Assembly: GCA_024860865.1 (NCBI GenBank)
Contig: JACRDV010000035.1
Location: 1 to 9,519 of the forward strand
Origin: JACRDV01 sp024860865 [NCBI: Methanobacteriota archaeon]
GTDB lineage: Archaea > JACRDV01
Direction of reading: 5' to 3'
DNA: 9,519 nucleotides
Shown here: in pieces, positions 1-9,291 of the stretch
Layout of the letters: every line of letters starts with the position of its first letter
Numbering within the stretch: position 1 is the stretch's first letter
Notes under the pieces: generated by a model
What the model saw: the letters and a program-made list of their open reading frames with translations, nothing else
Database searches by the model: none
What the model was told of the DNA's origin: nothing
Position numbers and translations under genes: made by a program

Positions 1-726
1 GTTTTTTGCGAAGGAGCAGAGAGCTGGTATTTATGCCATACAAGGGCTGTTCACAATCCATTTGAGTTTCAGAAGAGAGATGTCGAACGCCCTTATCAAA
101 GGCCAATATTTAGTATTTCCCCAAGGCTTTCTAAGATATTGGTTAATCTCTCGGGAGCCAAGCCTAATGATATTTTACTTGACACATTTTGTGGTTATGG
201 AACTATATTGCAAGAAGCAATTTTAATGAGCATGGATATTAGAGGCATTGATATAGACGAGAAATGTGTAGAGGCAACTAAAAAAAATTTGAAATGGTTG
301 AGCAAAGAATACAATATTAAAATAAATGATGTTGATGACAAAATATTTCTTGGCGATGCAAAGAAGTTAGATCAATACTTTGAAGAAAATTCAATTGATG
401 CTATTGCTACTGAACCCCCATTGGGTCCTCCTCTTAAAAAATTGCCTCCTACAAAAATTGCTGAAAGAATCATTGAGGATTTAGAACCCTTATATTACAG
501 TTCTTTTCAATCCTTTTATAAGGTTCTCAAACCAAACAAAAGGATATCGATTGTTTTACCTTGTATTAAAACAAGCACAGGGAAATTTGTTAAATTTGAC
601 CCCATAGAATTAACTCGAGAAATAGGCTTTGGTGCAATTCCATTGTCTCTAGAACATACGACTCTTATTGATGCCGAGATGAGACATAGAGTTCTAAGAG
701 AGATTTACGTTTTTAAAAAATTTTAA
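1..726 (+). CDS. Trm11/Trm-G10-type RNA methyltransferase, 5'-truncated by window edge
   Basis: The frame is open from base 1, so the gene starts outside the window; the TTG at 139 is internal. 241 residues are visible. They hold an S-adenosylmethionine-dependent methylase fold: motif I DTFCGYGTI (visible residues 61-69), an acidic ribose-binding strand GIDID (82-86), and a motif IV region TEPPLGPP (138-145). The upstream HNPFEFQKRDVERPYQRP segment is typical of the archaeal Trm11/Trm-G10 (UPF0020) family, which N2-methylates guanosine 10 of tRNA in the cytoplasm. Full-length members carry an N-terminal THUMP domain, which would lie off the left edge. The usual (D/N)PPY catalytic motif is replaced by TEPPLG, so the exact target is uncertain. 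The gene ends at TAA and converges with the SQR-like gene. It has no evident functional link to the sulfur genes. Confidence 0.8.
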   Translation, partial: VFCEGAESWYLCHTRAVHNPFEFQKRDVERPYQRPIFSISPRLSKILVNLSGAKPNDILLDTFCGYGTILQEAILMSMDIRGIDIDEKCVEATKKNLKWLSKEYNIKINDVDDKIFLGDAKKLDQYFEENSIDAIATEPPLGPPLKKLPPTKIAERIIEDLEPLYYSSFQSFYKVLKPNKRISIVLPCIKTSTGKFVKFDPIELTREIGFGAIPLSLEHTTLIDAEMRHRVLREIYVFKKF

Positions 727-802: not shown

Positions 803-1960
803 TTAGAACCAATGCCAGAACCACCATTTTTCAAAAAGAATTTTGCCCCAATGCCATATCCTGCCTGGTTCTCTCATTTTAACAGCTGGTGCCGGTTCTG
901 CATAGAAATTGCCGGAACCATAGGCAGCTTTACTATAACCTATTTCAATAAAGCAAGAACCTTTTCCATCGAACTTCCTTAGTGTTCCACTACCGCTGAT
1001 TTCAGCATCAATATTATGCGCTACTGCCTCTGCCTGATAATGAGCGAAGACACCTGCCTTTGGCAACATTTTTTTGCCATCAGGCAATCTAACAGCAGTA
1101 ACATCTCCAATAGCATATAGCTCATCATATTTAGTGTTTAGTGTTTCTCTACTCACAGGTATCCATCCGCTTTCGTCCGTTAGACCCGCTTCTTTAACCA
1201 CCTTCGGGCTCCTATGAGGGGGTATGCCGACTAGAAAATCGTATTTTACTTTTTCACCTTTTTCAAAAGTAATTTCTCTTTTTTCCGAATCTATAGAAGT
1301 CACTTTAAAGTTTGGATTATAGTTTATGCCGCGCATTTCTAACATTTGCTTCATTGCATTGCCTACAGTTGGACCTGCAACCGGCATAGGCTGAGGCTCT
1401 GGAGTATAAATTCTCAAGTCAATTTTGTCTCTCATTCCTCTCTCTCTATAGTAGTAGTCCATGAGAAAAGCAGCTTCATATGGAGCAGCAGGACACTTGA
1501 AAGGGAGGCTAGAAATCAACACAATTAATTTTCCACTAGAAAAGCCCTTTAATGCATCTCTTAATTTAATAACTCCATTTAAATCATAAAAATTGTGGGC
1601 AGATTGAGCGAATCCAGGAACAGCTTCTAACGCTAGATCTGCACCAAGTGAGATCACAAGATAATCATATGCAAAGTCTTGAACACTTGTTTTTACTAAC
1701 CTATTTGCAGGGTCAATTTGTAAAATTTCAGCGTTAACATACTCTATCTTTTTTTTATTTAACTTTTCCAAGCTCTTTTGGACTTGAGATGGCTCTCTCC
1801 ACCCCATTAAAACCCAAACAAACGATGAATTGAAGATGTGTTTTGTATTTTTATCTATAAGGATAATCTTATGCTCTTTACCTAGCCTTTTACGTAATTC
1901 GTTGGCAACAACAAGTCCGCCTGCTCCTCCACCTAAAACCAATATATTTTTACCACTCAT
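803..1960 (-). CDS. sqr: Sulfide:quinone oxidoreductase-like FAD/NAD(P) flavoprotein
   Basis: 385 aa, of usual SQR/FCSD length. The N-terminal Rossmann FAD motif is GGGAGG (residues 10-15), the second dinucleotide-fold region begins near 143, and the C-terminal FAD contact is AIGDVTAVRLP (283-293). There are exactly two cysteines: Cys156 in FKCPAAPYE and Cys336 in GKGSCFIEIG. These are the positions of the redox pair that oxidises sulfide at the flavin in SQR and flavocytochrome c sulfide dehydrogenase. A third cysteine found in some SQRs is absent. The tryptophan-rich tail KWWFWHWF (378-385) suits peripheral binding to the cytoplasmic membrane near quinone. Start ATG at 1960 is preceded by GTGATC, a partial SD. 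The gene lies 90 nt downstream of the DsrE selenoprotein, with SECIS copy 1 between them. The likely role is sulfide oxidation to persulfide/polysulfide; a related oxidoreductase cannot be excluded. Confidence 0.82.
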   Translation of the reverse strand: MSGKNILVLGGGAGGLVVANELRKRLGKEHKIILIDKNTKHIFNSSFVWVLMGWREPSQVQKSLEKLNKKKIEYVNAEILQIDPANRLVKTSVQDFAYDYLVISLGADLALEAVPGFAQSAHNFYDLNGVIKLRDALKGFSSGKLIVLISSLPFKCPAAPYEAAFLMDYYYRERGMRDKIDLRIYTPEPQPMPVAGPTVGNAMKQMLEMRGINYNPNFKVTSIDSEKREITFEKGEKVKYDFLVGIPPHRSPKVVKEAGLTDESGWIPVSRETLNTKYDELYAIGDVTAVRLPDGKKMLPKAGVFAHYQAEAVAHNIDAEISGSGTLRKFDGKGSCFIEIGYSKAAYGSGNFYAEPAPAVKMREPGRIWHWGKILFEKWWFWHWF

Positions 1961-1981: not shown

Positions 1982-2059
1982 TTCAGGTTATGACTTTCCT
2001 GCTGGAAAGCTCTTTGCTCGAGATTAAAACTTTTCTCGAACAAATCATTGTTACCCGAA
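1982..2059 (-). promoter_or_regulatory. SECIS element, copy 1 (3' UTR of DsrE selenoprotein)
   Basis: Read as minus-strand RNA. Helix I pairs 2059-2053 with 1988-1982 (7 bp, one G.U) and overlaps the last codons and the first base of the TAA stop. AUGA lies at 2048-2045. Helix II pairs 2044-2035 with 2022-2013 (10 bp, with a U2040.G2017 wobble). The apical loop begins with AAAA (2034-2031). GA at 2012-2011 faces UGA, giving tandem sheared A2045.G2012 and G2046.A2011 pairs plus U2047.G2010. This AUGA/AA/GA layout is the kink-turn core of eukaryotic SECIS elements. A second hairpin, CUUUCC-AGCA-GGAAAG (2009-1994), branches between the core and the 3' strand of helix I. The folding was done by eye. 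Confidence 0.8.
1987..2053 (-). repeat. Direct repeat copy 1 (SECIS cassette)
   Basis: This 67-nt segment aligns without gaps to 3127-3193, with six differences (at 1991, 1992, 2040, 2044, 2049 and 2052). The core 1993-2039 is 47 bp of perfect identity with 3133-3179. On the minus strand the segment begins exactly with the stop codon of the upstream gene. The two host genes (DsrE-like and HesB-like) are not homologous, so the element was duplicated independently of the coding sequence. Confidence 0.95.
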
Positions 2060-2380
2060 TGTTATAACTTTATCATTTTCTTCAACAAATTTGACAAAAT
2101 CGTTCATAACCGCTAGAGGGGAAAGTTGAAAAGTTTTATCTTTCCCTCTGGCTATTAAGCAAGTACCTCAAGCCATTATATGTCCACCGGCATCAATGAA
2201 ATCTCTTGTAACTTTTTCAACATCGAAAGTTTCATGTTTTATTTCTCCTACCTCGACTCCTTTACTCATGAGAAAAACTTTTACTTCATGGCCTTCAAGA
2301 ATAGCTGTAAGTCCAAATCTAAAAGCGTTCCAAGCACTTTCAGGTTCATTTGTATTAATTACAATACCTATTTTGCTCAT
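2051..2380 (-). CDS. DsrE-like selenoprotein with in-frame TGA (Sec71, UxxC site)
   Basis: The frame from ATG 2380 runs 70 codons to TGA (2170-2168). It then continues in frame for 38 codons (GTCLIARG ... DKVITFG) to TAA at 2053-2051, giving 109 residues. Read-through produces a complete DsrE-family protein: IGIVINTNEPESAWNAF at the N-terminus, the loop GGHIMA-U71-GT-C74-LIARG, then LSPLAVMNDF and a final DKVITFG strand. DsrE proteins have Cys at the position of residue 71; the paralogue at 8172-8564 has CGPC there. They are small cytoplasmic persulfide carriers. ATG 2380 is preferred because GGAGGTGA (2396-2389) sits 8 nt upstream, inside the end of the arsR gene; the GTG at 2392 is part of that SD. 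A SECIS follows two bases after the stop. The protein probably takes sulfane sulfur from the SQR encoded next. A nonsense mutation is the main alternative. Confidence 0.88.
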
Positions 2381-2388
2381 TCTTGTTC

Positions 2389-2739
2389 TCACCTCCTACC
2401 CCGGATTTTTTTAGCTAGTTTTTCATCATCAGCTAATTGCTCAAACAAAATGTCTCTTATAATGCTACAAGCCTGGATGATTTTTGGGTTAGTGATTTTG
2501 TAGAAGATATTCACGCCTTCCCTTCTGCTCTCAACAATCTTTTTCTTTCGTAAGAGGGCAAGATGCTGGGATAAATTCGCTTGAGGAATATTAGCCAACG
2601 AAGCTAGTTCGGTGACTGTTTTTTCACCATCTCGGAGTATATCCAATATTTCTAATCGCTTGGGATTCGCTAATATTTGACATATTTCAGCATGCAATTC
2701 AAAGATTTTTTTGTTTAATTCCGAAACTCTTTGACCCAT
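2389..2739 (-). CDS. ArsR-family winged-helix repressor, possible thiol/persulfide sensor
   Basis: 116 aa, the normal ArsR/SmtB length. The family core is visible: LANPKRLEILDIL (residues 23-35), recognition region ELASLANIPQANLSQHLALLRKKKIV (44-69, written here only to mark its extent), then the wing REGVNIFYKI (73-82). It binds DNA as a dimer and is typically released by metals or reactive sulfur. Only two cysteines are present, Cys20 in the first helix and Cys91 in the C-terminal helix. In ArsR dimers these helices lie together, so a disulfide or persulfide switch is plausible, as in the SqrR/BigR group, although the cysteine positions differ from SqrR. It is first in an operon with the DsrE selenoprotein and SQR; its TGA stop overlaps the SD of the next gene. 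A near-palindrome in its own promoter suggests autoregulation. Confidence 0.85.
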   Translation of the reverse strand: MGQRVSELNKKIFELHAEICQILANPKRLEILDILRDGEKTVTELASLANIPQANLSQHLALLRKKKIVESRREGVNIFYKITNPKIIQACSIIRDILFEQLADDEKLAKKIRGRR

Positions 2740-3121: not shown

Positions 3122-3200
3122 AATTTGTTAAAACTTTCCTGCTGGAAAGCTCTTTGCTCGAGATTAAAACTTTTCTCGAGCAAGTCATAGTCAACAAATT
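3122..3200 (-). promoter_or_regulatory. SECIS element, copy 2 (3' UTR of HesB-like selenoprotein)
   Basis: Minus-strand RNA. Helix I pairs 3200-3191 with 3131-3122 (10 bp, one G.U); it contains the TGA stop codon of the gene. AUGA is at 3188-3185. Helix II pairs 3183-3175 with 3162-3154 (9 Watson-Crick bp). The apical loop starts with AAAA (3174-3171). GA at 3152-3151 gives tandem sheared pairs A3185.G3152 and G3186.A3151, plus U3187.G3150. The side hairpin CUUUCC-AGCA-GGAAAG (3149-3134) is kept. Helix I differs in sequence from copy 1 but is still paired, which supports the fold. Confidence 0.8.
3127..3193 (-). repeat. Direct repeat copy 2 (SECIS cassette)
   Basis: This is the partner of 1987-2053, with 61 of 67 positions identical, including the 47-bp perfect core 3133-3179. 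Orientation is the same. The stop codon is again followed by two bases and then AUGA, so the cassette sits at the same register relative to the end of an unrelated coding sequence. Confidence 0.95.
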
Positions 3201-3520
3201 CTTTCAAAACCTTTAATCGTTAGATATTCCGTGAACCAAGTTTTTTCAGCATCTATTTCTAGTTCACTTGTACTTAGGTGTTGTAGTAGGTACTGAGCAA
3301 GCTCAGAATCTAGGAAAATTGGGATATTATCATCTTTAATTTTTAGTAAGTTATATCCCTTTAGTTCCTGCTCTCTGACCAATGAAACGTCAAGGCTAGG
3401 CCCGCTTCATCCAATTCCGGCATATATTAAGACTGCTGGATCTGTGACGCCTAAGCTAATTTTTTTCTGTATGTAATGCTTTGCTTTTTCAGTTAAAACT
3501 GCTTTCAGGCCATTTTCCAA
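3191..3520 (-). CDS. HesB/IscA-like selenoprotein with in-frame TGA (Sec38)
   Basis: From TTG 3520 the frame runs 37 codons to TGA (3409-3407), then on in frame through SGPSLDVSL to a second TGA at 3193-3191: 109 residues. The N-terminus LTEKAKHYIQKK and the loop YAGIG-U38-SGPSLDVSL align with the HesB/IscA pattern LTekAa... GGCSGxxY, placing Sec exactly on the first conserved cysteine used for Fe-S binding. A family of HesB-related (seleno)proteins with Sec at this site is known (TIGR01911). The CGC tail of classical IscA is absent; one terminal Cys109 remains. The start is chosen from GGAAGTGA (3533-3526), five bases upstream; GTG 3529 is the alternative. The second TGA is taken as the stop because it lies five bases from the SECIS core. 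The role is probably Fe-S or selenium/sulfur handling in the cytoplasm. Confidence 0.87.
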
Positions 3521-3547
3521 GAAATTCACTTCCTTTTTATAATTATG

Positions 3548-4022: not shown

Positions 4023-4436
4023 ATGAATGAACTAGAAGAAATTCGAAGGAAAAAAATGGAAAAGTTAGTGAAAGAAATTGGTGAAAAGAATCCGAGTGCG
4101 CAAAATTATCCAAAGGCACCAATAACTATTACTGACGAAAATTTTGATCAAATAGTTCAACAATATCCTTTGATGGTCATAGACAATTGGGCCCCTTGGT
4201 GTTTTCCTTGCAGAATGATCGCTCCAATTATCGAAGAAATGGCTAAAGATTATGCTGGAAAAGTAGTCTTTGGAAAATTAAATACTGATGAAAACCAAAG
4301 AACCCCTCTAAAATTTGGAGTTATGGGCATACCAACGCTACTTATCATTAAAAATGGAAAAGAAGTCGATAGAATAGCAGGGGCAGTACCGAGAGAATAT
4401 ATCGAATCTAAATTGCGAAGATATTTGCATGAATGA
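4023..4436 (+). CDS. trxA: Thioredoxin
   Basis: 137 aa. The thioredoxin domain occupies about residues 33-137 and has the active site W59-C60-F-P-C63 and cis-Pro104 in MGIPT. An extra charged, probably helical N-terminus of about 30 residues (MNELEEIRRKKMEK...) precedes it; there is no signal peptide, so it is cytoplasmic. It reduces disulfides and persulfides in client proteins using electrons from the reductase two genes downstream. A strong SD, AAGGAGG, lies upstream of ATG 4023. It opens a plus-strand cluster with the MIP18-like, reductase and disulfide oxidoreductase genes. The WCFPC site differs from the common WCGPC, which usually shifts redox potential; the effect here is not predictable from sequence. 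Confidence 0.92.
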   Translation: MNELEEIRRKKMEKLVKEIGEKNPSAQNYPKAPITITDENFDQIVQQYPLMVIDNWAPWCFPCRMIAPIIEEMAKDYAGKVVFGKLNTDENQRTPLKFGVMGIPTLLIIKNGKEVDRIAGAVPREYIESKLRRYLHE

Positions 4437-4500
4437 ATCAAATTAAAATCATTTTGAGCTTTAAAGCTTTCTTTAATAATAAAAAAATCGAGGGAGATTA

Positions 4501-4854
4501 ATGGAAAAATATGAAATTCTTGAAATTTTAAAAAACGTATATGACCCAGATTATAAAGATAAGTCCATTGTAGAATTGGGTCTTGTGGATGAAAACACCA
4601 TAAAAATAAATGAAGACAAAATAGAAGTGGAATATAAAGTGGCAGCTCCATTTTGTCCATTTAGCGCTGCTATCGGAATTATGATTCAGTATGCTTTGGA
4701 AAAGAAATTTGGAAAGCGAGTTGATGTGAAAATCCAGCCTGGGCATTATCAAGAAAAACTAGTAGAAGAAATATTGAGAAGCGAAGAAAAAAGAAAAGAT
4801 TTGCTTAGTAAATTAGAATCTTTTGGAATACTTCAGCGATGTGTAAGAATATAG
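4501..4854 (+). CDS. MIP18/DUF59-family Fe-S assembly protein
   Basis: 117 aa with SD GAGGGAG before ATG 4501. The MIP18/PaaD/SufT pattern is clear: the N-terminal helix MEKYEILEILKNVYDPDYKDK, the strand SIVELGLV (22-29), and the loop AAPFCPFS (48-55) containing Cys52, the family's conserved cysteine, followed by a helix and a second beta element DVKIQPGHYQEK. Members help mature Fe-S proteins. Residues 88-117 are a charged tail ending in CVRI (Cys114), longer than the minimal domain. It sits between thioredoxin and thioredoxin reductase, only 12 bp before the latter, which implies co-transcription. Co-location with a HesB-like selenoprotein fits an Fe-S theme; partners are unknown. Confidence 0.82.
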   Translation: MEKYEILEILKNVYDPDYKDKSIVELGLVDENTIKINEDKIEVEYKVAAPFCPFSAAIGIMIQYALEKKFGKRVDVKIQPGHYQEKLVEEILRSEEKRKDLLSKLESFGILQRCVRI

Positions 4855-4866
4855 TAAATGAGATAA

Positions 4867-5775
4867 ATGAATACTGATATCCTAATTATCGGATCAGGAC
4901 CAGCCGGAATACAGGCTGCGATTTATGCCGCTCGAAGAAAAGTTGATGTAATCATTCTTGGTAAATTAGAAAATAGCTCTTTAGCAAAAGCCCATGTTGA
5001 AAATTATTTTGGCATCTCTGGGCCAATAGTTGGTATAGATTTACTAAGGGTTGGAAAAGAACAGGCAGAAAAATTTGGTGCAAAATTTATTGAAGAAGAT
5101 GCACTGCATCTCGAGCGAAAAGATGACAAGTTTATTGTTAAGACTGAAGGCGGAAAAGAAGTCGAATCAAAAGCAGTAATTTTTGCGATGGGTGTATCAA
5201 GAAAAAAACTTGGTGTGAAGGGAGAACAACAATTTCAGGGAAGAGGGGTTAGCTATTGTGCAGAATGCGATTGCGGATTTTTCAAGGGAAAGAAAGTGGC
5301 GGTCATTGGAGATGGAAGCGCGGCAGCTAGCAGCGCAATATTACTGGCTAAATATGCCTCAAAAGTCTATTTAATTTCAAAAAAACTTAGCACATCAGAA
5401 CATTTACAAGATGAATTGAAAGTAGGGAATATTGAAATAATAGAAGGCAAAAGAATAAGCGAAATTTACGGCAACAGTGCAGTCGGTGGGATTAAGCTGG
5501 ATGGCAGCTCATTGGAAGTAGAAGGTGTTTTCATTGAATTGGGTTCAAAGGGGGTTATAGAGCTCGCTGTCAATGTTGGTTTGCTCCCGGATCCAAGAGG
5601 TTACATTCATGTGAATGAGGAACAAAAAACCTCAGTGCTAGGAATTTTTGCTTGCGGCGATATATGCGGTCCTCCTTTACAACTTGCTAAGGCTGTTGGT
5701 GAGGGATGTATTGCCGGCATTGAAGCAGCAGAGTATGTAAAAAGAATAAGCAAATTAGAAAAGCAGACTGTTTGA
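4867..5775 (+). CDS. trxB: Thioredoxin reductase-like flavoprotein, atypical cofactor site
   Basis: 302 aa, the normal low-molecular-weight TrxR length. The FAD motif is GSGPAG (residues 9-14), the redox-active disulfide C131-A-E-C134 is followed by Asp135 and Cys136, the second dinucleotide loop is GDGSAA (148-153), and the FAD tail motif is FACGDICGPP (261-270). It would reduce thioredoxin or the neighbouring disulfide oxidoreductase. The usual NADPH-binding features are degraded: GGGNSA is GDGSAA, and no HRRxxxR follows (LISKKLST instead). Archaeal TrxRs that do not use NADPH are known, for example the F420H2-dependent enzyme of Methanocaldococcus, so the donor here is open. Start ATG 4867 follows the MIP18 gene by 12 bp; the SD is weak. 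Confidence 0.87.
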   Translation: MNTDILIIGSGPAGIQAAIYAARRKVDVIILGKLENSSLAKAHVENYFGISGPIVGIDLLRVGKEQAEKFGAKFIEEDALHLERKDDKFIVKTEGGKEVESKAVIFAMGVSRKKLGVKGEQQFQGRGVSYCAECDCGFFKGKKVAVIGDGSAAASSAILLAKYASKVYLISKKLSTSEHLQDELKVGNIEIIEGKRISEIYGNSAVGGIKLDGSSLEVEGVFIELGSKGVIELAVNVGLLPDPRGYIHVNEEQKTSVLGIFACGDICGPPLQLAKAVGEGCIAGIEAAEYVKRISKLEKQTV

Positions 5776-5810
5776 AAATAACCCATCATAAAAAAACTTG
5801 GAGGACTAAT

Positions 5811-6440
5811 GTGGGAGCAATATCCGAGAAGGATAAAAAACATTTGCAAAAGATATTTGAAAAGAACGTACAGACCGGAGTAAAAATACTAGTTTTTACT
5901 CAAGAAGATAGGCATAGAGAAATAAAAGAGCTTATGCAAGAATTAGCTACTACTTCAAATAAAATTGAAGTTGAATTATACGATTTTACTAGAGATAGCG
6001 AAAAGATTAAACAATACAATATAGATAAGATCCCCGCGATTGCAATCATCGGGAAAGAAGATTATGGGGTAAGATTTTACGGCATACCCTCAGGCTATGA
6101 ATTTTCATCTTTAGTTGAAGATATTATTGATGTCTCTAGAGGAACAACAGATCTCCCTGAAAAAATCAGAAATCAATTAGGATCAATAAATAAACCAATC
6201 CATATTCAAGTTTTTGTGACGCCTACTTGTCCTTACTGCCCTAAAGTGGTTAGGCTAGCACACAAGTTCGCAATTGAGAATGATTTAATAATATCGGATA
6301 TGATAGAAGCCACGGAATTTCCAAATCTGGCATTAAAATATAGAGTTATGAGCGTTCCGAAAACAGTTATAAATGAAAAAATTGAATTTGTAGGAGCGCT
6401 GTCCGAAGAGGACTTTCTTGAATATATATTAGCTGCATAA
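5811..6440 (+). CDS. pdo: Protein disulfide oxidoreductase, two thioredoxin folds
   Basis: 209 aa from GTG 5811, chosen because TTGGAGGAC lies just upstream (GGAGG at 5800-5804). A TTG at 5772 in the same frame overlaps the previous stop but has no SD. The protein has the tandem fold of archaeal PDO/glutaredoxin-like proteins. The N-terminal unit spans about 20-108 with cis-Pro75 in KIPAI. The C-terminal unit spans about 128-209 with active site C140-P-Y-C143 and cis-Pro183 in SVPKT. In typical archaeal PDOs both halves carry CxxC; here the first has FTQEDRHREI at that position and no cysteine, so only one site is active. It is probably a cytoplasmic thiol-disulfide exchanger, reduced by the TrxR-like enzyme encoded 35 bp upstream. 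Confidence 0.88.
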   Translation: MGAISEKDKKHLQKIFEKNVQTGVKILVFTQEDRHREIKELMQELATTSNKIEVELYDFTRDSEKIKQYNIDKIPAIAIIGKEDYGVRFYGIPSGYEFSSLVEDIIDVSRGTTDLPEKIRNQLGSINKPIHIQVFVTPTCPYCPKVVRLAHKFAIENDLIISDMIEATEFPNLALKYRVMSVPKTVINEKIEFVGALSEEDFLEYILAA

Positions 6441-6483
6441 CTTTAGAAATTCTAATTAATATTGTTTGAAAATTAATCTAAAA

Positions 6484-6526
6484 TTTCTTTTTTGTTTAGA
6501 GTAATTTTTAGTTTTTTGTTCTTTTA
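6484..6526 (+). terminator. U-tract terminator after the thiol-redox cluster
   Basis: Several T runs follow the PDO stop by 44-86 bp: TTTCTTTTTTG (6484 onward) and GTTTTTTGTTCTTTT (6511-6525). Archaeal transcription usually ends at such tracts without a hairpin. The rest of the 195-bp gap to the next gene is AT-rich and carries that gene's promoter. Confidence 0.45.
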
Positions 6527-6577
6527 TAATTATAAATACTAAAGTAAATTATATATTACTATATTATAATATACTAA

Positions 6578-6585
6578 TTTAAATA
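6578..6585 (+). promoter_or_regulatory. TATA-like box of the YeeE-TusA-DsrE operon
   Basis: TTTAAATA is centred about 54 bp before the ATG at 6636. A start site about 26 bp downstream would leave a leader of about 28 nt. The whole 6530-6600 stretch is very AT-rich, so the exact box is uncertain. Confidence 0.45.
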
Positions 6586-6635
6586 TTTGAAAAAATTAAA
6601 ATCGTTATTCTCTTTAAAACAAAAGAAGTGAATTA

Positions 6636-7838
6636 ATGAGCCCCAATCAAATCTACAAGAGAATATTTGTCGCGCCTTGGCCCGAATGGATTGGCGGTCT
6701 TATTTTAGGGATCTTCTTTATTATTTTCTCTGCTTGGGCATTAACGCCTTTTAACATTTATGGAGGCTATTATAATTGGGGTAGCTGGTTCTACAAACTC
6801 ACTGGATTAAGTGATTTTTTCCCTGCCTTTAAGGATCCTGCTTCACCACTTATGGCAAAGATGAGCGTGGGCAATTTAGGATTTTTGTTAGGTGTTTTCT
6901 CAGCAGCAATACTGGCAGGCGAATTTAAATTGAAAGGAGTCACATCAAAAACTGATTACATAGAAGCGGTTTTAGGCGGCTTTGTTATGGCTTTGGGCGT
7001 AGTGTTTGCATGGGGGTGCAACTTCGGAGGCTTCTTCTCAGCTATCACAGCGTTGAGCCTAAATGGCTTTGCTATGATGCTGGGGCTAATTGTTGGCGGC
7101 TTCTTGGGTTCTCTATATGTGAATTGGAGAGCAGCGGGGATAGAAATATTGGAGTTGATACCGGTTGAAGCCAAAATCTCTAGCCCATCTACGCCTTCAG
7201 ATAGTGGTAACAAAACGTGGCTGCCTATTTTACTGATACTTATTCCCATAACACTTGTTGTTTTAATAAATTACTATTATTCTATTAACGGTGCCATTAT
7301 TTACTCTGGAATTTTATTCATAGGTTTGTTCATTGGTTTTACTGTACAAAGGTCACGGCTTTGCTTCACAACTGCTTTTCGAGATCTCTTTAACAAAAAA
7401 GGAGAATTTTTAAGATCATTAAAATTGCAAAGAGCCATAGTACTAGGCTTAATTGTAGCAGCAATAGGTATTGCTGCTTTAAAGGCGAATAATCTCTTAG
7501 ATAAAGATCTAAATGTAAGCCCAGTGGGATGGATCAATGTGATGGGAGGCATTTTATTTGGGTTTGGCATGGTAATTGCAGGAGCTTGCGGTTCCGGAAT
7601 GTTATGGCGGACTGCAGAAGGACATTTGAAGCTTGTGATAGCACTTGTTGTTACCACCTTAGCCTTCGTGCCTTTAACGCTATTTATATGGAACTATGCA
7701 CCTGCATTGGCAGGGCCTAAAATCTTTATTCCAACCGTCTTTGGATGGCCACTTGGTCTACTATTCATTATAGGTCTACTTTCGGTATGGCTGCTAATTT
7801 TGAGATGGATAGAACATCAATGGAGAGGTAGGAAATAG
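6636..7838 (+). CDS. YeeE/YedE-family sulfur (thiosulfate or selenium) transporter
   Basis: 400 aa and strongly hydrophobic, with about nine membrane segments in two homologous halves. Each half has the family signature around a cysteine: WGCNFGG (Cys128) in the first and GACGSG (Cys318) in the second; Cys243 lies in QRSRLCFTTAFRD. In characterised YeeE (TsuA), such membrane cysteines pass thiosulfate across the membrane; the related YedE is associated with selenium metabolism and is paired with YedF, a TusA-DsrE-like fusion. The loop at about 175-195 (AKISSPSTPSDSGNK) links the halves. TusA starts on the base after the stop, showing tight coupling. Thiosulfate, another sulfane-sulfur compound or a selenium compound are all possible substrates. 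Start ATG 6636 has only a weak SD (AAGTGA). Confidence 0.88.
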   Translation: MSPNQIYKRIFVAPWPEWIGGLILGIFFIIFSAWALTPFNIYGGYYNWGSWFYKLTGLSDFFPAFKDPASPLMAKMSVGNLGFLLGVFSAAILAGEFKLKGVTSKTDYIEAVLGGFVMALGVVFAWGCNFGGFFSAITALSLNGFAMMLGLIVGGFLGSLYVNWRAAGIEILELIPVEAKISSPSTPSDSGNKTWLPILLILIPITLVVLINYYYSINGAIIYSGILFIGLFIGFTVQRSRLCFTTAFRDLFNKKGEFLRSLKLQRAIVLGLIVAAIGIAALKANNLLDKDLNVSPVGWINVMGGILFGFGMVIAGACGSGMLWRTAEGHLKLVIALVVTTLAFVPLTLFIWNYAPALAGPKIFIPTVFGWPLGLLFIIGLLSVWLLILRWIEHQWRGRK

Positions 7839-8090
7839 ATGGGAGTTAAGTTTGAAAAAAAAGATGAGAAATCTTACCTATTAGATGTAAGAGGATATCT
7901 ATGTCCTTATCCAGTAATCTTTACGAGAAAAGCCCTTCTACAGTTAAAAGAAGGAGATTTCTTGGAGGTCTTTACTGATAATCCCGCTTCTTGTGAAAAT
8001 GTGCCTAATGATGTTAAGGAAGATGGCCATAAGGTCTTAGCTATTGAACAAATGGGGCGAGGTGAGTGGAAGATAGTTATTAAAAAATAG
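7839..8090 (+). CDS. tusA: TusA/SirA-family sulfur carrier
   Basis: 83 aa. The motif LDVRGYLCPYPVIFTRKAL contains C22-P-Y-P, the sulfur-accepting cysteine of TusA proteins, and a second cysteine, Cys52, sits in ASCENVP. The body is the small beta-alpha-beta fold ending GEWKIVIKK. TusA carries sulfur as a cysteine persulfide in the cytoplasm between donors and DsrE/TusBCD-type proteins or biosynthetic enzymes. ATG 7839 directly abuts the TAG of the transporter gene, and GAGAGGTAGG upstream is the SD. TusA next to YeeE is a recurrent pairing: the transporter hands imported sulfur to it. In YedF a TusA-like and a DsrE-like domain are fused, and this operon carries the same two parts separately. 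Confidence 0.93.
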   Translation: MGVKFEKKDEKSYLLDVRGYLCPYPVIFTRKALLQLKEGDFLEVFTDNPASCENVPNDVKEDGHKVLAIEQMGRGEWKIVIKK

Positions 8091-8171
8091 AGGGGTGAAG
8101 AGTTAGCTAGGAAAATGAGAAATTAAAACTTGCCAGTTCTAAAAAATAAAAATTTTTTGAGAGGTGTTAAA

Positions 8172-8564
8172 TTGGAAATAGGTGTAAGCCAAGGCAATAT
8201 TGAAAAGAAAAATAAAACCTTAACAATATTTTTATTCACGAGCCCATATGGTTTTGAAAATTCCTCGACGGCAGCGCGATTGGCTGAGGCAGCTTTAGAC
8301 AAAGGTTATTCTGTGAATATGTTCGCTTCGAGCGATGGAGTTTACAATTTTATGGCAGGACAAAAGGCTGTTGCAATTCCGAACATTCAACAAGAGTTTG
8401 AAAAACTGATCAATAAAGGGTTAAAGGTATACTTATGTGGTCCTTGTTTAAACTTTCGTGGGATACAGCGCCAGAATCTTATCGAGAATTCTAAACCTAG
8501 CTCTCTTACTGAACTTTTTGCTATAATGGGTCAGAGCAATGTATTTCTATGCTTTAGTTTTTAA
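8172..8564 (+). CDS. DsrE-family protein with CxxC (sulfur relay)
   Basis: 130 aa from TTG 8172, preceded by GAGGTG (8161-8166) at ideal spacing; the in-frame TTG at 8130 lacks an SD. It has the DsrE fold: strand LTIFLFTSPYG, helix STAARLAEAALDKG, strand VNMFASSDGVYNF, and the active loop VYLC89-G-P-C92-LNFRGI, then SSLTELFAIM and a final strand VFLCFSF. Cys89 and Cys92 correspond to Sec71 and Cys74 of the selenoprotein at 2051-2380, so the window holds Cys and Sec forms of one active site. The likely task is accepting persulfide sulfur from TusA in the cytoplasm, together with the two related proteins that follow. It lies 81 bp after TusA in the same operon. Confidence 0.88.
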   Translation: MEIGVSQGNIEKKNKTLTIFLFTSPYGFENSSTAARLAEAALDKGYSVNMFASSDGVYNFMAGQKAVAIPNIQQEFEKLINKGLKVYLCGPCLNFRGIQRQNLIENSKPSSLTELFAIMGQSNVFLCFSF

Positions 8565-8579
8565 TGGGCAGGTGGTTTT

Positions 8580-8945
8580 ATGGAATCAATTTGCATAATA
8601 GTAAGAAAGGCTCCTTATGGAGTCATCCAAGCGGGCGAGGCTTTAAGGCACATTAGTGGAGCAGTTGTTCATAAACTAAAGACTACTGCAGTTTTGTTGG
8701 ATGATGGAGTTTACCTTGCAAAAGCCAATCAAGCCGGTGAGAATACTGGTTGGCCCTCTTTAGCTGATGGTTTGAAGGAACTGTTGGAAGTTAGTAAGGG
8801 CAACCCTCCAAAAATTTTTATTCATGCTGAATCGATGAAAAACAGAGGATTGCACATGACGGACATGATAAAAGGAGCTGAAGAAATCACTGACGACCAG
8901 TTAGCAAAAATTTTGAGCGATACTAAAACAGTAATGATATTTTAA
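8580..8945 (+). CDS. DsrE-superfamily protein lacking active-site cysteine (DsrF/TusC-like)
   Basis: 121 aa, SD AGGTGG before ATG 8580. Fold pattern as in DsrE/DsrF: SICIIVRKAPYG, helix QAGEALRHISGA, strand TTAVLLDDGVYLA, then IFIHAESMKNRGLH and a final TKTVMIF strand. In the loop where DsrE proteins carry Cys, this one has H-A-E-S; its only cysteine is Cys5. DsrF/TusC are the non-catalytic partners in the DsrEFH and TusBCD hexamers, so a structural subunit with the flanking genes is likely (inference). It starts 15 bp after the upstream gene and ends 16 bp before the next. Confidence 0.82.
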   Translation: MESICIIVRKAPYGVIQAGEALRHISGAVVHKLKTTAVLLDDGVYLAKANQAGENTGWPSLADGLKELLEVSKGNPPKIFIHAESMKNRGLHMTDMIKGAEEITDDQLAKILSDTKTVMIF

Positions 8946-8961
8946 AAATAGGGGGAGAAAA

Positions 8962-9291
8962 ATGAAATCAATTCTGATAGTAATATCTAACTCGCAAGAT
9001 AATGCCATATCTTCATTACAGCTGGCTAATTCAATTCAAAAACAGGGCAATAAGGTTTCCATTTACCTTCTTCAAGACGGTGTATTTTGTTCTCTTGCTA
9101 ATGAAAATATAACTAAATCAGTGGTGGAAAAAGCCATAGCAAGTGGAGTGGAGTTTTATGTGCTATGCGATGACCTAACCCTTCGGGGGTTTTCAGAAAG
9201 GGAGATAATCCCGCAAGTACATGTTTCATCTTATTCTGAGCTGATCGACCTAATGTTAGAAAAATGCGATTTTACCATAGGAGTCCTTTAA
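8962..9291 (+). CDS. DsrE-superfamily protein (DsrH/TusB-like position)
   Basis: 109 aa, strong SD AGGGGGAG before ATG 8962. It shows the same alternating pattern: SILIVISNSQDN, helix SSLQLANSIQKQG, strand VSIYLLQDGVF, then FYVLC69-DDLTLRGF and CDFTIGVL at the end. Cys69 aligns with the first catalytic position of DsrE, and the second is Leu, so only one cysteine is left in the loop; Cys43 and Cys102 lie elsewhere. DsrH/TusB are the third, short subunits of the DsrEFH/TusBCD sulfur-relay complexes and carry one conserved cysteine. By place and size this could be that subunit, although its loop (Cys...LRG) is more DsrE-like. It is the last gene of the operon. Confidence 0.82.
   Translation: MKSILIVISNSQDNAISSLQLANSIQKQGNKVSIYLLQDGVFCSLANENITKSVVEKAIASGVEFYVLCDDLTLRGFSEREIIPQVHVSSYSELIDLMLEKCDFTIGVL

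Follow-up and report, generated by a model that had tools for sequence, protein, structure and literature searches.

We identify two elements on the minus strand of a 9519-base stretch of an archaeal genome (contig C131; hereafter "the window", meaning this whole stretch) which we interpret, with a probability of about 0.83, as SECIS elements that are k-junctions and that recode an upstream UGA to selenocysteine (Sec) in a DsrE-like and a HesB-like gene. In a k-junction the non-bulged strand of a kink-turn carries an additional helix; published examples fold with ions (PMC4005666, PMC10573300). The interpretation draws on the sequence, the predicted pairing, covariation in other archaea, the gene context and the presence of most of the Sec machinery. 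A preliminary description of this DNA had reported AUGA, a helix, an A-rich apical loop and GA on the minus strand at 1982-2059, all of which we recover as described (the helix has 11 bp, and 10 bp in a second copy); it did not include a further helix, located between the GA and the closing helix, which we refer to as helix III. The elements, their parts and their host genes lie at the following positions of the window:

1982..2059 (-): putative SECIS of the DsrE-like gene, a three-way (k-junction) element (sequence, MFE, shuffles, descriptor)
2053..2059 (-): helix I 5' strand, UUCGGGU, overlapping the final codons and stop of the DsrE-like gene (sequence, MFE)
2045..2048 (-): AUGA, kink-turn core (sequence)
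2034..2044 (-): helix II 5' strand (sequence, MFE)
2024..2033 (-): apical loop, AAAGUUUUAA (sequence)
2013..2023 (-): helix II 3' strand (sequence, MFE)
2011..2012 (-): GA, kink-turn core (sequence)
1993..2010 (-): helix III, GCUUUCC-AGCA-GGAAAGU, the extra hairpin on the non-bulged strand (MFE; its counterpart at this position in other archaea covaries)
1982..1988 (-): helix I 3' strand, ACCUGAA (sequence, MFE)
2051..2392 (-): DsrE-like putative selenoprotein gene, in-frame UGA read as Sec, stop UAA (PF02635, 44.2 bits)
2168..2170 (-): putative Sec codon UGA, codon 75 of the DsrE-like gene, AUGA 122 nt downstream
3122..3200 (-): putative SECIS of the HesB-like gene, second copy (sequence, MFE; matched by model R2, built without it)
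3185..3188 (-): AUGA of the second copy (sequence)
3151..3152 (-): GA of the second copy (sequence)
3133..3150 (-): helix III of the second copy (MFE)
3191..3529 (-): HesB-like putative selenoprotein gene, in-frame UGA read as Sec, stop UGA (TIGR01911, 19.9 bits)
3407..3409 (-): putative Sec codon UGA, codon 41 of the HesB-like gene, AUGA 221 nt downstream

Each element runs from helix I through a short linker to AUGA, helix II with its loop AAAGUUUUAA, GA, helix III and a second linker before returning to helix I. At 3184/3153 the HesB copy has C/A, which shortens its helix II by one pair. In both copies helix I reaches into the end of the coding region (in the second it is AAUUUGUUGA/UUAACAAAUU and contains the HesB-like stop codon), and its sequence differs between them yet pairs in both (UUCGGGU/ACCUGAA versus AAUUUGUU/AACAAAUU). 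The earlier argument for the minus strand also holds: 2040/2017 and 3180/3157 are U.G and C-G on that strand, as against A/C and G-C on the plus strand. Each copy shares with a eukaryotic SECIS the AUGA...GA quartet, helix II and an apical unpaired A; the 11 (10) bp and 10 nt of the upper stem and loop fall within the ranges of the Asgard eSECIS-like type I, for which the model gives GA_[G/A]A as core, 7-15 bp for the upper stem and 8-20 nt for the loop; and the G.A/A.G tandem, joined on the non-bulged strand by a third helix, agrees with a k-junction at the level of secondary structure.

The three-way junction is the MFE fold of both copies, with z-scores of -4.80 (DsrE) and -4.76 (HesB) and 0/200 shuffles as good in each case. 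A three-arm descriptor, written after seeing the copies, scores them 60.6 and 63.1, where the best of 60 shuffled windows reaches 45.5. When the hand-picked cores were held fixed and the flanks shuffled, helices I and III were matched in 0/200 shuffles for either copy. The Rfam SECIS families gave no match to the element at E<=5 or E<=10; this is a weak test, as these families also matched nothing in 13 + 6 loci holding other archaeal elements, including methanogen GAA/A ones.

The UGA of the DsrE-like gene falls in an alignment column that is Cys in 31 of 32 homologs and Ser in the remaining one (33 loci were collected and one was dropped as too short); the in-frame UGA thus occupies a conserved redox position, and the element lies, as for a SECIS, in the UTR of this gene. 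The assignment of the second gene is weaker, its TIGR01911 (HesB-like protein) score of 19.9 bits comparing with a cut-off of 66.35, and a Pfam search gave no match. DsrE-like and HesB-like proteins are both among the prokaryotic selenoproteins listed in a recent review (PMC13188914). The two genes are surrounded by a sulfur/redox gene cluster (window 803-1960 on the minus and 4023-9291 on the plus strand) whose members include a type III sulfide quinone reductase-like protein, a thioredoxin, reductase-like proteins, a YedE-like transporter and TusA-like and TusC-like proteins; the best model for the sulfide quinone reductase-like gene is a selenoprotein subtype, and the gene itself has no UGA.

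Most of the Sec machinery is represented elsewhere in the assembly. One contig (C153) carries the N-terminal 300 aa of SelB at its end (297.9 bits, cut-off 242.25) and a PSTK match of 195.6 bits, below the cut-off of 290.5. SepSecS was not found in this genome in a survey of 394 genomes, 39 of which had a match above cut-off. Beside selD lies a tRNA-Sec candidate (locus L123, G000:C124, 1402-1519, minus strand), a full-length match to RF01852 with anticodon UCA, a nine-pair acceptor and a four-pair T stem. It scores 35.5 bits against a gathering threshold of 47, as does one tRNA-Ser of the genome, and ARAGORN did not detect it. Inserts of about 13 nt in its anticodon loop and 17 nt in its T loop may be introns, possibly two; a T-arm intron is on record for the tRNA-Sec of Lokiarchaeota (PMC9499178). 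According to one review archaeal Sec is confined to Methanococcales, Methanopyrales and Asgard (PMC13188914), but Sec machinery has been reported in some Bathyarchaeota and one Archaeoglobi (PMC8762117), and a Sec user outside the three listed groups is therefore not wholly new.

Seven genes with an in-frame UGA were found in the genome, five of which adjoin an AUGA-core element. The preliminary description would have been refuted by an element lying mostly away from TGA-containing genes, which is not the pattern here, and its central proposal of an archaeal SECIS with an AUGA/GA core, next to genes that contain UGA, is supported. Of the five elements, those of DsrE, HesB and SelD clearly have three arms, one FlpD element possibly has them, and in that of an HdrA-like gene they were not seen. 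The selD gene (C124) has one in-frame TGA, and its element begins six bases past the stop (AUGA-AAAACUAGU-AAACCUUUUAGGA-ACUAGUUUU-GA-GUUA-CUGCU-GCAA-AGCAG-ACCA), combining the arms of the window copies with another sequence. A wider stretch around it has a three-armed MFE fold with a few extra pairs beside the core (z -2.86, 1/200), and 3/200 flank shuffles were as good in helices I and III around its hand-picked core. The gene on C55 we take to be HdrA-like from its motifs; Pfam gives it FAD and 4Fe-4S domains. It has a UGA at codon 61, preceded by 307 nt by an AUGA/GA element in the 5' UTR:

locus L219 (G000:C55) 2397-2475 (-): 5'-UTR AUGA/GA element of the HdrA-like gene, third helix weak or absent

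No third arm was found for this element (flank test 200/200). It resembles the M. jannaschii fdhA SECIS (PMC9499178) in preceding its gene, and differs from it in its AUGA/GA core and its hdrA-like host.

Three FlpD genes (C68, C147 and C132) carry one or two TGA each. In the C68 element the UGA of the AUGA is also the stop codon, helix II has GAA/A at its apex and a third hairpin is present; the AUGA is partly paired in the MFE fold, the z-score is only -1.36 (18/200), and the element did not pass the flank test (22/200). The earlier statement that these elements lack the GAA/A loop of methanogen SECIS is thus correct for both window copies, from which a GAA/A bulge with S-S pairs is absent, but does not extend to C68, which has GAA/A at the helix II apex and AUGA/AA at the base. 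A UGA of the AUGA/GUGA core that doubles as the stop codon (254-257, minus strand, of locus L253 in C68) is seen also in SelD loci of family f38, such as L102. For C147 there is a weak by-eye candidate, missed by the core scan: a hairpin capped by GAAA that extends over the 3' end of the gene and whose GUGA is paired in the MFE fold. No element was found for C132.

How such an element might act is suggested by its likeness to known k-junctions. Helix I would correspond to the C helix, AUGA...GA and helix II with its A-rich apical loop to the NC helix, and helix III to the T helix; the junction would fold by itself with ions into a kinked shape and expose the apex of helix II to the ribosome-bound aSelB/Sec-tRNA. 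Eukaryotes use SBP2, an L7Ae-family protein. By analogy with the published junctions no SBP2-like protein of that family would be needed here, the third helix lying where such a protein would sit. Self-folding without an L7Ae-type protein, as in two published k-junctions, could explain how archaea lacking SBP2 manage, and the third arm may thus account for archaeal independence from the eukaryotic binding protein; SBP2 was not found in archaea according to PMC11227280 and PMC13188914. The competing view, that the kink-turn is bound by an L7Ae/L30e-type protein as by SBP2 in eukaryotes, with the third helix tolerated, can appeal to the AUGA/GA core, and binding of this kind had been proposed in the preliminary description. 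We consider it unlikely, though the strongest of the alternatives: two k-junctions are not folded by L7Ae, with the T helix thought to block it (PMC10573300), and SBP2 was not found in Asgard archaea (PMC11227280). By this analogy L7Ae-type binding is doubtful.

Less probable still is that these are plain two-helix eukaryote-like SECIS followed by an independent hairpin, for example a terminator or spacer. Helix III does lie in the 3' UTR, a possible place for a terminator, UUUU follows it in the second copy, and it is missing or very weak in the HdrA-like element. However, the first copy has no U-run after helix III, helix I encloses helix III in the MFE fold of both copies, and helix III ends only 0-4 nt before the helix I 3' strand in the DsrE, HesB and SelD elements. 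The earlier designation of the element as a eukaryotic SECIS applies to its AUGA/GA core and not to its form, in which the non-bulged strand bears a third helix. Covariation of helix III in related elements of other archaea, to which we now turn, argues in the same direction.

We sampled SelD 3' regions of a second phylum from 75 of the 94 listed matches. From UGA-containing selD and a GUGA/GA core in one family we infer that this phylum is Asgardarchaeota; we call it Asgard-like, and its genomes are mostly 2-4 Mb. The three-arm descriptor matched 26/30 loci of family f38, 31/32 of f53, 4/4 of f121 (two of them below the shuffle 95% point) and 8/9 of other families; for 870 shuffled regions the 95% and 99% points lay at 35.5 and 40.9, and the highest score was 48.1. 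The 99% point was not reached by 6/30 f38 and 13/32 f53 loci, and in the four f38 loci with no descriptor match helices I and III are visible by eye. As a stem-seeking descriptor favours stems, we also chose cores by helix II alone and compared helices I and III with those of shuffled flanks. This flank test gave p<=0.05 for 23/25 f38, 24/30 f53 and 10/10 other SelD loci and for 16/20 FlpD loci of the Asgard-like phylum, having left out 5/30, 2/32, 3/13 and 3/23 loci, respectively, for want of a core; the FlpD sample comprises all 23 TGA-containing matches of that phylum. In the source genome, around cores picked by hand, three of five elements (DsrE, HesB and SelD) pass the test. A shuffle test by MFE class had little power, with about one quarter of shuffles three-armed and several natural folds not counted as three-arm.

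Three arms are absent from all 11 methanogen-like SelD loci, where the three descriptor matches all lie elsewhere. Scans of eight such loci (families f23 and f42) detected neither three arms nor an AUGA/GA core close to the stop; the 3' region of SelD in family f10 (L088, L089) has a GUGA core, a GAA/A apex and a strong hairpin after GA or AA, with no clear helix I. Among methanogen-like FlpD loci three arms are present in 2/4 (L238 and L240; flank test 0/200 each, tested because they had already matched) and absent from the two of family f10. The possibility that helix III corresponds to the methanogen SECIS upper stem was dropped, as GAA/A maps to the helix II apex.

Covariation was assessed in MAFFT alignments of 26/30 f38 and 29/32 f53 elements, taken from descriptor-matched rows, a choice which favours pairing (L166 and L175 were left out despite a descriptor match). 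Helix III is paired in 96.1% (f38) and 96.2% (f53) of cases, with double changes at 5/5 and 4/4 pairs, and helix I in 99.5% and 95.9%. The whole structure is paired at 93.7% and 94.2%, compared with at most 43.4% and 56.2% when the partner is slid by 1-3 columns. In neither family did any of 500 shuffles reach the covariation score of helix III; the f53 helix III showed no excess of further pair types (492/500 shuffles as high). The preliminary description had named a lack of helix covariation among further copies as a refutation of its proposal; in these related elements the helices do covary. Model R2, built from 16 Asgard-like elements and the SelD element of the source genome, matched the HesB copy (21.6 bits, E 0.0098) and not the DsrE copy; an Enterococcus locus scored 19.4 bits, near the score of the HesB copy. 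Across 29 genomes R2 gave one match at E 0.0028, in a genome with no SepSecS match (G002), and none in four f38 genomes; the window copies are not among the hits of this search, which scored 150 of 589 source-genome candidates. Of four R2 candidates examined in detail, three (L213, L217 and L209) look like chance.

A contig contributed by contamination from an Asgard archaeon is very improbable. In its favour are a core type that matches Asgard SECIS (PMC11227280), an assembly of 160 contigs (1.54 Mb, completeness 92.45, contamination 0.73) and the missing SepSecS. Against this, the tetranucleotide use of the window agrees better with eight other stretches of its own assembly (correlation 0.77-0.91) than with three Asgard-like loci (0.55-0.77; stretches of differing, uncontrolled length), and SelD, whose SECIS shares the same architecture, clusters with methanogen-like rows (98/94) and apart from 15 Asgard-like rows in an unrooted tree (26 of 30 loci tried were used, four not being extracted). 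All 40 relatives compared are related to the source genome only at the level of "same domain", as are all the SepSecS survey genomes among the matches listed (293 of the 394 are not listed), including SepSecS-bearing methanogen-like and Asgard-like ones, and the genomes listed with SelD matches. Since every listed relative is this distant, we infer that none of the compared genomes shares the phylum of the source genome. The earlier suggestion of a Lokiarchaeota intermediate to the eukaryotic system does not fit, because no closer relative was found and SelD clusters with methanogen-like rows. The element is neither Asgard-specific nor quite eukaryotic, given this clustering, the three-armed methanogen-like flpD elements and the third helix.

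Finally, a terminator, or a palindromic or mobile repeat, located behind two genes by chance would account for two copies 92% identical and 1.1 kb apart, but is the least credible alternative, since only these two copies of the sequence, both in the window, were found in the 1.54-Mb genome (by a sequence search and by model R1, whose searches rest on sequence and helix II), both follow genes with in-frame UGA, DsrE's at a conserved Cys column, and the third element, after selD, has the same arms with a different sequence.

The k-junction SECIS that we favour for the window copies has partial counterparts among known systems. The Asgard eSECIS-like types I and II (Huang 2024, PMC11227280) share the AUGA/[G/A]A core, upper stem, A-rich apex and 3' UTR location, but are modelled as upper stem, core, internal loop and lower stem, with no third helix in the main-text description; in the text of that paper "three-way" does not occur and "k-junction" occurs only in a reference. 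Eukaryotic SECIS form 1 shares the AUGA...GA kink-turn core, helix II and A-rich apical loop, and has two helices and an internal loop (PMC11227280) as opposed to three helices. Euryarchaeal GAA/A elements share the 3' UTR location and, with one flpD element of the source genome, GAA/A (here at the helix II apex), and differ in that the AUGA/GA core and three arms were not found in the eight f23/f42 loci. The k-junctions of the TPP riboswitch and DUF-3268 (PMC4005666, PMC10573300) have the same kink-turn with an added helix and a riboswitch or unknown function, and the main texts of these papers do not mention SECIS. An [A/G]UGA_[G/A]A core is reported for methanogen hdrA and frhD (PMC11227280). 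Most archaeal SECIS are described as having two apical loops and those of Lokiarchaeota a single one, in wording that leaves a branched form possible (PMC9499178). We found no description of a three-way or branched archaeal SECIS in the literature searched, the scope of which excluded Mariotti 2016 and supplementary files, and the novelty of the third helix is accordingly provisional.

In the DsrE-like and HesB-like genes, then, an in-frame UGA is probably read as selenocysteine via a three-armed signal. This touches on two open questions, how UGA is recoded in archaea without SBP2 and how the eukaryotic SECIS originated. To the first, a third arm on the kink-turn offers a testable answer. As to the second, an AUGA/GA core outside Asgard archaea implies that the core alone need not mark a route to eukaryotes. 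In a tentative scenario, to which we give somewhat less than even odds, archaeal SECIS descend from a self-folding k-junction whose helix II had AUGA/GA at its base and GAA/A (or AAA) at its apex. Most methanogen elements would have kept this apex without helices I and III, and in the line to eukaryotes helix III would have disappeared, leaving open the kink-turn face that SBP2 now binds; were this true, the third arm would have been lost and SBP2 acquired in a single transition. Helices I and III are left out of search models that cover only the core, upper stem and apical loop, and the published failure in M. maripaludis of a lokiarchaeal SECIS (PMC11881835) may merit a second look with the whole element.

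Two further observations concern the host genes in other archaea. Some Asgard-like genomes (L086, L127-L130) have a SelD match of about 390-400 bits in an open frame of 532-782 aa with no TGA. Upstream of methanogen-like flpD, and separate from the downstream three-arm element, lie matches to the Rfam flpD RNA (RF01737, gathering threshold 40) of 56.5 bits at L240 (1966-2012, minus strand) and 35.8 bits at L238 (1242-1287, plus strand).
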